A stretch of DNA of 39,501 nucleotides from assembly GCA_003022125.1 (NCBI GenBank), contig PXQH01000066.1:1-39501 (forward strand), in the 5' to 3' direction. The position numbers were made by a program, and so were the translations under genes. Below are positions 1,910 to 21,961 of the stretch, in pieces (position 1 is the stretch's first letter; each line of letters opens with the position of its first letter). The notes beneath the pieces were generated by a model, which saw only the letters and a program-made list of their open reading frames with translations, was not told the DNA's origin and did no database searches. The DNA comes from Cyanobacteria bacterium QS_8_64_29. GTDB lineage: Bacteria > Cyanobacteriota > Cyanobacteriia > Cyanobacteriales > Rubidibacteraceae.

Positions 1910-4703
<2,794 letters not shown>

Positions 4704-4718
4704 GCGTCGGGTGGCCCG

Positions 4719-4741
4719 TCGATGGCATGCAGTTTTCAGGG
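4719..4741 (+). other. 3' arm of pre-23S processing stem
   Basis: These bases in the 23S-5S spacer are complementary to 1851-1874, upstream of 23S, over about 23 pairs with one bulged base and a single imperfect position. They would bring the two ends of pre-23S together, as in the RNase III processing stems known for bacterial rRNA operons. Confidence 0.85.
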
Positions 4742-4767
4742 GCTGGCTCGGGCCGGTCCAGTGCTTT

Positions 4768-4887
4768 CCCCTGGTGCCCATAGCGCCGCGGATCCACCCC
4801 GACCCATCCCGACCTCGGCGGTGAAACGCGGCTGCGGTGAAAATACTGGGGGGTTCGCCCCCTGGGAAGATAGCTCGGTGCCAGGGG
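4768..4887 (+). rRNA. rrf: 5S ribosomal RNA
   Basis: About 120 nt, closed by the terminal stem CCCCTGG (4768-4774) with CCAGGGG (4881-4887). It contains the conserved CCCATCCCGACCTCGG segment of loops B/C and the GGTGAAAC motif. The distance to 23S is about 65 nt. Ends are set by the terminal stem. Confidence 0.95.
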
Positions 4888-4896
4888 TATCCCTTC

Positions 4897-4923
4897 GCCC
4901 CCCGCCTCCTAGAGGTGGGGGGC
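4897..4923. terminator. rrn operon/dnaJ convergent terminator hairpin
   Basis: Twelve-pair hairpin GCCCCCCGCCTC/GAGGTGGGGGGC around a CTA loop. It starts 10 bases after 5S and ends 3 bases before the stop codon of the convergent dnaJ gene, so it may serve both strands. No strong T-run follows on either strand, so Rho-independent activity is inferred from the stem alone. Confidence 0.65.
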
Positions 4924-4926
4924 TTG

Positions 4927-5829
4927 CTAATCGCTCTCCCCTAAATCCCTCCGCGGATCGAAGGCTTCCACCTGCCGCAGCTGCTCGTAGAGCGATCGCT
5001 CGGCTTCGCTGGGGTCGCTGGGAACGGCAATGGCGATCTCGACGAGCTGGTCGCCGCGCCCCTGCGAGTGAGGGTAGCCCTTATCGGCCAATCGCAAGCG
5101 CTTGCCGCTCACCGTGCCGCCCGGAATCGAGACGCGAACCGGCCCATCCAGGGTGGGGACCTTGATCGCGCCGCCCAGAACGGCTTCGCTGGGCGTCACC
5201 GGCACCCGGCAGATGACATCCGAGCCGTGCAGCTTAAACAGCGAATGCGGTGCGATGGTAATAGTCAGGTAGAGGTCGCCTCCCTCGATGCCCTGACCGC
5301 GCAGCCGCATCTGCTGGCCATCGACCATTCCGCTGGGCATATCGATTTCCAGCGATCGCCCGTCCTCGAGGCGAACGCGTTCGCGGCCCCCTTGATAGGC
5401 CTTCTCGAGCGGTAGGGTGAGCTTGGCTTCGACGTCGCGCGGCCGCGCGCTGCCGCCATTCTTCCCCTCGCTGGGGGCAGCGCCGGCCTTGTACGCGCGC
5501 TTGGTGGTACCGGGCTGGTAGGCATCGTCGCGATCAAGCGGCACCTGCCGGGCCCGTTGCGTGCGGCTCTCCCGCCGACGGCGCCGCGGTGCACCCCGAC
5601 GGTGCCGCGAGCGCCGCATGGTTTGGTCGTACTGCGCGCGCTTGCGCTCGTCGCAGAGTACATCGTAGGCCTCACCGATGGCTTTAAAGGTCTCCTCGGC
5701 GTCCTTATCGCCTGGGTTGAGATCGGGGTGATAGCGCCGCGCCAGCCGCCGGTAGGCTTGCTTGATCTGTTCGGTGGAGGCCTCTGGCGAGACGTTCAAC
5801 AGCTCGTAGTAATTGCGGGATTGCTGCAT
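4927..5829 (-). CDS. dnaJ: DnaJ/CbpA-type Hsp40 co-chaperone without zinc finger
   Basis: J-domain co-chaperone that stimulates the ATPase of DnaK and delivers unfolded substrates. An N-terminal J domain (about residues 5-70) carries the invariant HPD at residues 34-36. A charged Arg/Gly-rich linker follows, then the DnaJ C-terminal beta-sandwich domains (from about residue 130). The CxxCxGxG zinc-finger repeats of type I DnaJ are absent, so this is a CbpA/DnaJ2-like class protein. It lies 54 bases downstream of dnaK on the same strand, so the two probably form an operon. The ATG at 5829 (MQQSRNYYEL) is chosen over an in-frame GTG three codons upstream; neither has a convincing ribosome-binding site. 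Cyanobacteria usually have several DnaJ paralogues, and which one this matches was not tested. Confidence 0.93.
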   Translation of the reverse strand: MQQSRNYYELLNVSPEASTEQIKQAYRRLARRYHPDLNPGDKDAEETFKAIGEAYDVLCDERKRAQYDQTMRRSRHRRGAPRRRRRESRTQRARQVPLDRDDAYQPGTTKRAYKAGAAPSEGKNGGSARPRDVEAKLTLPLEKAYQGGRERVRLEDGRSLEIDMPSGMVDGQQMRLRGQGIEGGDLYLTITIAPHSLFKLHGSDVICRVPVTPSEAVLGGAIKVPTLDGPVRVSIPGGTVSGKRLRLADKGYPHSQGRGDQLVEIAIAVPSDPSEAERSLYEQLRQVEAFDPRRDLGESD

Positions 5830-20040: not shown

Positions 20041-21288
20041 GTGAGTGCGGATCCCGCCCGAGGCAAGGCCGCCAACGCCGCAGCGCCCGGTTTTGACCCC
20101 AGCGCTTTTGATGCCTGCGTCATGGGCACCTACCGGCGCTTGCCCGTGGCCCTGGAGCGGGGCGAAGGCTGCCGCTTGTGGGATACCCAAGGCAACGAAT
20201 ACCTAGATTTTGTGGCCGGCGTCGCCACCTGCGCGCTGGGGCATGCCCATCCGGCGCTCGTTGCGGCGGTGACGCAGCAGGTGCAGCACCTGCACCATGC
20301 CTCCAACCTGTACTACACGCCGCTGCAGGGGCAGCTGGCGCAGTGGCTGGTCGAGCGCAGCTGCGCGGACCGGGCGTTTTTTTGCAACTCAGGCGCCGAG
20401 GCCAATGAAGCGGCTATCAAGCTGGCGCGCAAGCACGCGCGCGCGGCCCGCGGCATAACCGAGCCCCTGATCCTGAGCGCCCGCGCTAGCTTTCACGGCC
20501 GCACCCTAGCCACCATGGCTGCCACCGGCCAAGCCAAAGTGCGGCAGGGGTTCGAGCCGCTGCCGCCCGGCTTTGCCCAAGTGCCTTACAACGATAGCGA
20601 GGCGCTTGAAGCCGCGCTAACGCCGCAGGTAGCAGCCATCATGCTGGAGCCGCTCCAGGGCGAGGGGGGTGTCCGCCCCGGCGATCCGAGCTACTTCCAG
20701 CGCGTGCGCCAGCTGTGCGACGAGCGCGGCATTCTACTCATTATGGATGAAGTCCAGACCGGGATGGGCCGCACCGGGACGCTCTGGGGCTACCAGCAGC
20801 TCGGGATCGAACCCGATGCCATCACCAGCGCCAAGGGCCTCGCCGGCGGCATCCCCATGGGGGCCATGCTGTGCAAGCGCTTTTGCGACGCCTTCGAGCC
20901 CGGCGACCACGCCAGCACCTTTGGGGGCAATCCGTTGGCCTGTGCGGCAGCGCTGGCCGTCGGGCAGACCCTAGAGCGCGACGGGTTGCCGGCCAATGCC
21001 CGAGCGCGCGGCGAGCAATTGCGCTCGCGGCTAACTGCCCTTGCCCGCCAGTTCCCGCAGCTGTTTGAAGGGGTCCGTGGTTGGGGGGTGATTTCAGGGC
21101 TCGTTTTGCGTGCGGACGCCCGCCTGGAGGCGCTCGATATTGTCAAAGCCGCCCTGCAACAAGGCCTGCTGGTGGCAGCTGCCGGCGCGGGCGTGGTGCG
21201 TTTGGTCCCGCCGCTGATTGTCTCGGCCGATGAGGTCGAGCGCGGGGTGGATGCCCTCGAGCGGGCTGTCGGCCAGCTTGCGCACTAA
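20041..21288 (+). CDS. argD: acetylornithine aminotransferase
   Basis: PLP-dependent class III aminotransferase of 415 residues that converts N-acetylglutamate semialdehyde to N-acetylornithine in arginine synthesis; it may also act on succinyl-diaminopimelate precursors. Visible hallmarks are FFCNSGAEANEAAIKLARKHAR (split here as FFCNSGAEANEAA and IKLARKHAR), the DEVQTGMGRTGTLWGYQ PLP-ring Asp segment, the SAKGLAGGIPMGAM Schiff-base lysine and TFGGNPLACAA. The GTG start at 20041 is supported by AAGGAG six bases upstream. The enzyme has no organelle or secretion signal and acts in the cytosol. Related 4-aminobutyrate or ornithine transaminases are less likely given the close ArgD-type motifs. 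Monocistronic, with a GC hairpin following. Confidence 0.95.
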   Translation: MSADPARGKAANAAAPGFDPSAFDACVMGTYRRLPVALERGEGCRLWDTQGNEYLDFVAGVATCALGHAHPALVAAVTQQVQHLHHASNLYYTPLQGQLAQWLVERSCADRAFFCNSGAEANEAAIKLARKHARAARGITEPLILSARASFHGRTLATMAATGQAKVRQGFEPLPPGFAQVPYNDSEALEAALTPQVAAIMLEPLQGEGGVRPGDPSYFQRVRQLCDERGILLIMDEVQTGMGRTGTLWGYQQLGIEPDAITSAKGLAGGIPMGAMLCKRFCDAFEPGDHASTFGGNPLACAAALAVGQTLERDGLPANARARGEQLRSRLTALARQFPQLFEGVRGWGVISGLVLRADARLEALDIVKAALQQGLLVAAAGAGVVRLVPPLIVSADEVERGVDALERAVGQLAH

Positions 21289-21322
21289 GCAAAGCGCCGG
21301 GGCCAGTTCCCCGGCGCCTTGC
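21289..21322. terminator. GC-rich hairpin after argD
   Basis: GCGCCGGGG (21294-21302) pairs perfectly with CCCCGGCGC (21309-21317) around CCAGTT. After one mismatch the stem extends by GCAA/TTGC to 21289-21322. It starts right after the argD stop. No T-run follows on either strand, so termination is plausible but not certain. It could also end a transcript arriving on the minus strand. Confidence 0.6.
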
Positions 21323-21595
21323 AGGCGGCAGAAGGGTGGGGCGTCCGTTCCCTCAGGCCGTTCTGATGGAGGGTTTCACCTCCCTTCGGGAACGACAAAG
21401 TGGAGGAAGCGACAAAAACTCCACACCGCCCCAGGCATGCGGTCCGTTCGCCCGCCTGACGTCGCTCTCCTTCGGCAGGCGATAAATGGGCCCAAACGGC
21501 AAAACACCCAATCCGGACAACCGCAGTGCCGTTATAGGGTCTTTCCTCCTAGCGTAACAATCCGTTTTGGGCTGAGGCGAGTCGCGGCAGTGGGC
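21323..21595. ncRNA. unidentified structured intergenic region, candidate RNA gene
   Basis: No credible protein is encoded between argD and the next gene. The DNA contains nested complementary segments: TGGGGCG (21337-21343) with CGCCCCA (21427-21433) encloses two hairpins, CGTTCCC/GGGAACG (21346-21352 with 21388-21394, with GGAGG/CCTCC inside) and GTGGAG/CTCCAC (21400-21405 with 21419-21424). This makes a three-way junction. A second domain pairs 21438-21446 with 21514-21525 around CGCCTG/CAGGCG (21453-21458 with 21476-21481). AACGGC/GCCGTT (21495-21500 with 21528-21533) would cross it as a pseudoknot. A minus-strand promoter, TTGTTA-18-TATAAC (21560 to 21531), would make a transcript of about 235 nt ending at the argD hairpin. 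It does not match 6S, tmRNA, SRP or RNase P RNA motifs I know. Strand and identity are unresolved. Confidence 0.45.
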
Positions 21596-21961
21596 TCAGC
21601 GCAGGGGGGAGCTGTCGGCCTCCTGGTGCTCGAGCAGCTGCCAGTGCTGGCAGCCCGTTACGGCTTGCTGCAGGGCATCGAAACTTTGCCGGCAGTGATT
21701 GTCAAGCTGGAGCGGCAGTTCGTCGTTTTTGACCACAAAGTGCAGGCGCGCTTCACTCGCCGTTGCCGTGGTGCGATCGATCAGAACCTCGACGGTAACC
21801 AGCTTGGAAAAATTAACGCGGCCGGGTTGCTCGCGCGCCATGACGTATTCGTCCGTGTCGTAGATGATGTCAAAGTGGCAAGCTTGCAACACCTCGGCCA
21901 AGGATGCCTGCAGCTGTTCGAAGGGAATGGCCACGACCGCAGAACAGGTATAGCGAGCCAT
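21596..21961 (-). CDS. conserved hypothetical cyanobacterial protein
   Basis: A 121-residue soluble protein I cannot place in a named family. It begins MARYTCSAVVAIPFEQLQ and alternates hydrophobic and charged segments, as in a small alpha/beta fold. It contains YDTDEYVMAREQPG, FSKLVTVEVLIDRT and LHFVVKNDELPLQLDNHC, with no signal peptide or membrane segment. Three Cys residues are present without a metal-binding spacing. It is divergent from tmk and has normal codon use for the region, so it is likely a genuine gene. The ATG at 21961 is the only sensible start. Confidence 0.75.
   Translation of the reverse strand: MARYTCSAVVAIPFEQLQASLAEVLQACHFDIIYDTDEYVMAREQPGRVNFSKLVTVEVLIDRTTATASEARLHFVVKNDELPLQLDNHCRQSFDALQQAVTGCQHWQLLEHQEADSSPLR

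Follow-up and report, generated by a model that had tools for sequence, protein, structure and literature searches.

A two-domain CyVA-1-class RNA of cyanobacteria with predicted reciprocal kissing loops and a candidate homodimeric counterpart in acidobacteria

Within the window, the whole 39,501-nucleotide stretch of contig PXQH01000066.1 analysed here, the gene-free gap between argD and a minus-strand ORF of 121 aa carries a structured RNA gene on the minus strand. The features of the locus, in the direction in which the RNA would be read, are as follows.

21596–21961, minus strand: ORF of 121 aa, upstream of the RNA and co-oriented with it, without a Pfam or NCBIfam match
21555–21560, minus strand: −35-like box TTGTTA, read in the sequence from consensus resemblance only
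21531–21536, minus strand: −10-like box TATAAC, also read in the sequence, 18 nt from the −35-like box
21439–21520, minus strand: domain A, a three-way junction and Rfam CyVA-1 proper (RF02965 at 21441–21519, 78.2 bits, E 8e-17; model R2, 76.5 bits)
21514–21519 with 21441–21446 (approximate), minus strand: helix P1A (RF02965 alignment and covariation in relatives)
21487–21510, minus strand: hairpin P2A with the large loop L2A, UGGG at 21507–21510 pairing with CCCA at 21487–21490 (RF02965 alignment and covariation)
21448–21482, minus strand: hairpin P3A with loop L3A, 21474–21482 pairing with 21448–21456 (RF02965 alignment and covariation)
21495–21500, minus strand: predicted kissing hexamer GCCGUU of L2A (K1; partner 21357–21362; covariation ranks 11, 24 and 31 of 14,365)
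21461–21466, minus strand: predicted kissing hexamer AGCGAC of L3A (K2; partner 21408–21413; covariation ranks 14, 27 and 36 of 14,365)
21338–21432, minus strand: domain B, a second, diverged copy of CyVA-1 whose loop 3 carries an extra hairpin (RF02965, 40.2 bits, E 1e-7; model R1, 109.4 bits)
21427–21432 (GGGGCG) with 21338–21343 (CGCCCC), minus strand: helix P1B (covariation in relatives)
21400–21424, minus strand: hairpin P2B with loop L2B, 21419–21424 pairing with 21400–21405 (100% of cells paired in 34 relatives)
21346–21394, minus strand: hairpin P3B (21388–21394 with 21346–21352) enclosing P4B (21379–21383 with 21368–21372) (covariation)
21408–21413, minus strand: predicted kissing hexamer GUCGCU of L2B (K2; partner 21461–21466; covariation)
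21357–21362, minus strand: predicted kissing hexamer AACGGC of L3B (K1; partner 21495–21500; covariation)
21294–21318, minus strand: GC-rich terminator-like hairpin 3′ of domain B, followed by TTTGC (sequence and folding)
20041–21288, plus strand: argD, encoding acetylornithine aminotransferase (TIGR00707, 497.5 bits), a convergent neighbour outside the RNA

A preliminary description of this gap had proposed a minus-strand structured RNA of about 235 nt, starting from the two promoter-like boxes and ending at a GC hairpin, and our analysis recovered the boxes, the hairpin and an RNA of about 230 nt. The position of the −10-like box would place the 5′ end at about 21520–21526, directly before P1 of domain A; the −35-like box was not reported by a stricter promoter scan. 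The terminal hairpin is also able to serve argD on the opposite strand. In folding, the minus strand beat 200 of 200 dinucleotide shuffles (z −3.0), and the fold z-score alone was about −3 on both strands of this GC-rich window. The plus strand thus folds well too, yet the family evidence and the directional features are all on the minus strand, and the plus-strand reading was rejected. As already suspected from the absence of their motifs, 6S, tmRNA, SRP and RNase P RNAs had no Rfam match within the window; the genome's 6S RNA (RF00013) lies elsewhere (G000 C27). No further CyVA-1 copy was found in the window's own genome.

Comparison with Rfam identified the 5′ half of this RNA as a member of CyVA-1, an orphan family. 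Domain A scored well above the RF02965 gathering cut-off of 41.4 bits, and it contains the CyVA-1 three-way junction of P1, P2 and P3 together with the conserved loops (GUUUU..., GAAGGAGA...GUCA). Its helices covary in relatives: across 33 cyanobacterial copies 85% of cells pair, with both-side changes in 18 of 18 pairs. The match to domain B, which surfaced with a permissive threshold, lies directly 3′ of domain A, has an insertion in loop 3 and, taken alone, scores just below the cut-off; by its sequence, domain B is a CyVA-1 homologue below that cut-off. Among 34 cyanobacterial copies of domain B, the paired cells amount to 92% and both-side changes occur in 21 of 22 pairs, and pairing falls to about half when the partner strand is slid by 1–3 columns. 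All helices of both domains are backed by compensatory changes in relatives, except for weak parts of P1. In addition, columns B44-B46/B76-B78 (covariation rank 20; approximately 21385–21387/21353–21355 in the window) suggest that tandem G.A pairs extend P3B as far as another covarying pair beneath P4B. An inner mini-hairpin of domain B, UCAG/CUGA, was rejected because, on visual inspection of the alignment, pairing between its letters is not maintained.

These results recast the preliminary description in several respects. The three-way junction that it had drawn is domain B, whose P1B, P2B and P3B with P4B all covary, whereas its second domain is domain A, for which the P1A and P3A pairings stood but P2A had been overlooked. 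The pseudoknot that it had proposed between 21495–21500 and 21528–21533 does join complementary letters, but AACGGC at 21528–21533 overlaps the −10-like box, and the conserved partner is the AACGGC at 21357–21362; the second loop-loop helix, 21461–21466 with 21408–21413, had escaped notice. The label "undescribed" does not apply to the 5′ half, which is RF02965, and holds, as far as could be checked, for the 3′ half and for the way in which the halves fit together. Two of the checks that it had proposed, an Rfam search and a test for compensatory changes in relatives, gave positive results, the latter in nearly every pair.

Covariation analysis gave strong support for two helices that join the domains through their loops. 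Using an APC-corrected G statistic, we ranked all 14,365 column pairs of 106 non-redundant tandem RNAs with no structure supplied. The nested helices, as expected, occupied the top of the ranking, and six interdomain pairs were found among the top 36: A23-B72 (rank 11), A59-B18 (14), A25-B70 (24), A55-B22 (27), A22-B73 (31) and A58-B19 (36). These pairs fall within two antiparallel six-pair helices, K1, between loop 2 of A and loop 3 of B (GCCGUU/AACGGC in the window), and K2, between loop 3 of A and loop 2 of B (AGCGAC/GUCGCU in the window). Column pairs through rank 26, including A23-B72, A59-B18 and A25-B70, scored above everything in 20 alignments simulated under a simple null, and the other three carry about 0.05 expected false pairs, with clade-linked column pairs that make no structural sense mixed in from rank 34 on. 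Among the 106 tandem RNAs, 94.7% of K1 cells and 97.8% of K2 cells pair, and sliding either partner by 1–3 columns reduces pairing to 22–55%; about one sequence in four has an imperfect K1, mainly through a single mismatch at the helix end. The loop codes differ between lineages and between paralogues of the same genome (e.g. ACCUUU/AAAGGU and GCUGUU/AACAGC), with K1 and K2 complementary or nearly so in most copies. The fold and the interdomain pairing are therefore strongly supported by covariation, and we consider it very likely that the RNA adopts the interdomain structure.

In cyanobacteria the two domains occur together almost without exception. RF02965 was found in 28 of 386 cyanobacterial genomes, one of them at chance level, and model R1, built from domain B, also found 28 carriers in the same 386 genomes. 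All 27 genuine carriers of domain A also have domain B, and one extra genome has domain B without a detectable domain A. Carriers include Coleofasciculus, Oculatella, Baaleninema, Fischerella and Adonisia, and in the order to which the window belongs 143 of 391 genomes contain domain B. The tandem set used here comprised 136 A-B pairs (143 B matches) from 126 loci and other copies; the linker between the domains ranges from 4 to 135 nt in these pairs, and this variability suggests that docking takes place between two separate units, A and B. A weak match in genome G264 (26.8 bits) looks like chance, a viral match to the pattern GAAGGAGANCGACGTCA (L251) was rejected as lying inside a low-complexity coding stretch that no model matched, and no match was found in plasmids and phages. 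Searches of genome contigs with GAAGGAGANCGACGTCA, which has only 16 fixed bases, yielded mostly chance matches; only the cyanobacterial ones were used, plus one further record that was useful only since its genome (Acidobacteriales, G387) has CyVA-1 elsewhere.

Several loci depart from a single A-B unit. At L217 and L266, domain B lies without a detectable domain A, and at L217 it seems to abut the preceding gene. Two full A-B units 215–730 bp apart form local arrays in several genomes (L192, L302, L326, L327, L194, L282). At L339 (3963–5560; G897), a TnpB-like ORF of 381 aa (4125–5270, minus strand) lies between domains A and B, apparently a transposon that landed in the linker and split the tandem RNA naturally; by eye the A and B loops are complementary there, and P1 of B may be damaged. 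Two kinds of tandem RNA were observed within one genome in seven cases (G308, G123, G215, G882, G806, G807, G819), one with a short linker and a K2 of AGCGAY:RUCGCU, the other with a linker of 37–63 nt and a K2 of AACGRY:RYCGUU, and the two kinds resemble paralogous subfamilies that differ in loop code.

Outside cyanobacteria, CyVA-1 was found in acidobacteria, where it consists of a single domain. The name presumably stands for cyanobacteria, verrucomicrobia and acidobacteria; among 195 genomes of the phylum of the Verrucomicrobiia locus none scored above the cut-off, and two 28-bit matches there look like chance. A search begun from G387 found CyVA-1 in 3 of 199 genomes of an acidobacterial phylum sample and in 41 of 120 genomes of one acidobacterial family. 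The genome searches gave one match per place with none beside it, and inspection by eye of the flanks of the loci viewed revealed no second copy; two of these copies (L223, L224) adjoin tRNA-like sequence. The acidobacterial loop 2 resembles loop 2 of B and its loop 3 resembles loop 3 of A, and the two loops of one copy are themselves complementary: in 42 non-redundant copies 98.4% of cells pair (shuffled mean 84%), 39 of the 42 at 6/6, with 18 compensatory double changes on the tree and codes that include AUCGUU/AACGAU, GCCGUU/AACGGC, GCGAUU/AAUCGC and GCCAUU/AAUGGC. This RNA thus has what a kissing-loop homodimer calls for, two complementary loops per protomer that are selected to pair.

How the complementary loops pair was considered for both forms of the RNA. 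Within each domain, loops 2 and 3 might form a cis kiss like those of the lysine or purine riboswitches, with the cross-domain complementarity a by-product of the similarity of the copies. Within-domain complementarity in the tandem RNA is fairly high, with 22 and 45 of the 106 sequences at 6/6, but the proportions of cells that pair within domains, 78.5% and 87.6%, lie near the shuffled means of 77.2% and 85.9%. Moreover, compensatory double changes, counted on a tree built without the hexamers and rough as trees of short RNAs are, number 52 between domains (23 for K1, 29 for K2) but only 2 + 2 within them, making cis kissing an unlikely account. For the single-domain RNA of acidobacteria, a cis kiss and a homodimer are indistinguishable from sequence alone; two points favour the homodimer, namely that in the tandem RNA these loops pair strictly between domains and that a coaxial kiss of two short arms in one three-way junction would require sharp bends, and on balance we lean towards the view that the acidobacterial RNA forms the same particle as a homodimer. 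The suggestion that the stems arose by chance, which the GC richness of the window and a fold z-score of only about −3 on both strands might invite, is already refuted by the Rfam E value, by conservation across phyla and by compensatory changes in nearly every pair.

The genomic context bears on whether the RNA is a gene of its own or part of a neighbouring transcript. Were the RNA a tandem riboswitch-like element, it would bind a ligand and regulate a neighbouring gene in cis. This reading would fit the aptamer-like look of two homologous three-way junctions in tandem, their loops carrying invariant letters, the terminator-like hairpins that frequently follow (within 130 nt past the 3′ end at 34 of 106 loci, compared to 3.9 expected) and the recurrence, at 38 of 121 loci (e.g. 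L205, L213 and L296), of a membrane protein-like family of about 230 aa that has no Pfam or NCBIfam match. This family always lies directly upstream and co-oriented. No recurring regulated gene, however, was found downstream in the same orientation: at most of the 121 loci the neighbours differ with no downstream gene in common, 68 have their downstream gene on the opposite strand, a same-strand gene follows within 300 nt at only 26, and in the window argD is convergent. We therefore judge cis control improbable, and no better a prospect is that the RNA belongs to the mRNA of the upstream gene, as a 3′-end element or stability module. That gene is co-oriented at 91 of 121 loci, often 80–400 nt away, but upstream genes differ among most loci and lie on the other strand at 27, and the window has a promoter-like site directly adjoining P1A. 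Across 105 relatives, TAnnnT boxes are mildly enriched about 20–25 nt before domain A. The preliminary description had suggested aligning orthologous regions downstream of argD, but the surroundings of argD are not the conserved context. Since neighbours vary among loci, a link to c0, argD or nicotinate phosphoribosyltransferase genes was rejected as an explanation. The Rfam type of RF02965 is sRNA, which would mean an independent intergenic RNA acting in trans; observed here were variable neighbours and promoter-like and terminator-like sites. Low-abundance CyVA-1 RNA has been reported from halite cyanobacteria (PMC7002113). Independent transcription of the tandem RNA is thus supported, and the varied contexts, scarcity of same-strand downstream genes, terminator-like hairpins, TAnnnT boxes and detected transcripts together point to a stand-alone RNA that may act in trans.

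We propose that the minus-strand gene encodes a free-standing CyVA-1-class non-coding RNA of about 230 nt, in which the homologous three-way-junction domains A and B would dock via K1 and K2 into a closed ring of quasi-twofold symmetry. An acidobacterial protomer with self-complementary loops 2 and 3 would form the same particle as a homodimer, and the cyanobacterial RNA would be a tandem fusion of two protomers that have since specialised. The ring may serve in trans as a rigid scaffold offering invariant unpaired letters (UUUUU of loops 2, GAAGG, and the CAG by which loops 3 are closed) to a partner, probably a protein. The explanation as a whole, a free-standing two-domain RNA with reciprocal kissing loops, a homodimeric counterpart and a scaffold role in trans, seems to us likely, with its parts held at different strengths. 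That CyVA-1 is natively a homodimer, and that tandem fusion in cyanobacteria turned intermolecular into interdomain pairing, after which A and B diverged and paralogues of one genome came to carry different codes, is a proposition to which we give about even weight. The scaffold role, a ring presenting invariant unpaired letters to a partner, is suggested tentatively from context and conservation.

The original description of CyVA-1 is reportedly that of Weinberg et al. in 2017. Within the literature that we searched, to which that description does not belong, CyVA-1 was named only in PMC7002113, in passing. The Rfam model covers less than half of the cyanobacterial RNA and none of its interdomain pairing. 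If the proposal is correct, CyVA-1 would be an RNA counterpart of the evolution of protein dimers into fusions, and nature would supply one-protomer and two-protomer genes of the same family for comparison, with a readable, swappable six-letter loop code, making RNA quaternary structure and its evolution directly testable. Functional RNA oligomers are rarely observed in nature, according to a review (PMC7357161).

Comparison with known systems places this RNA closest to CyVA-1 itself, since domain A matches RF02965 over its full length and above the gathering score, with the same three-way junction and conserved loop letters. The Rfam model, however, is a single 77-nt domain without loop-loop pairing, whereas here, and nearly always in cyanobacteria, the domain is followed by a diverged domain B that bears an extra hairpin, and reciprocal loop-loop helices are predicted to join the two. 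Each protomer of bicoid 3′-UTR domain III and of phage phi29 prohead RNA likewise has two complementary, non-palindromic segments, pairing over six positions in bicoid, and can thereby form head-to-tail closed dimers (PMC7357161). These RNAs have other folds and come from other organisms, and no common ancestry is claimed; in contrast to them, the CyVA-1 tandem has both protomers in one transcript, with partners that covary. The tandem glycine riboswitch also brings two homologous tandem junction domains into contact with quasi-twofold symmetry and also exists in single-domain forms (PMC7357161), but it makes these contacts by A-minor interactions and intercalation, not by Watson-Crick kissing loops, and it is a cis-regulator before genes, a role that the context of CyVA-1 does not support. 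Homo-oligomeric complexes, as proposed here for CyVA-1, are formed by GOLLD, ROOL and OLE, which are likewise natural non-coding RNAs of bacteria (PMC12286853); they are far larger and unrelated in sequence and fold, and their oligomers have been solved by cryo-EM, whereas that of CyVA-1 is a proposal.
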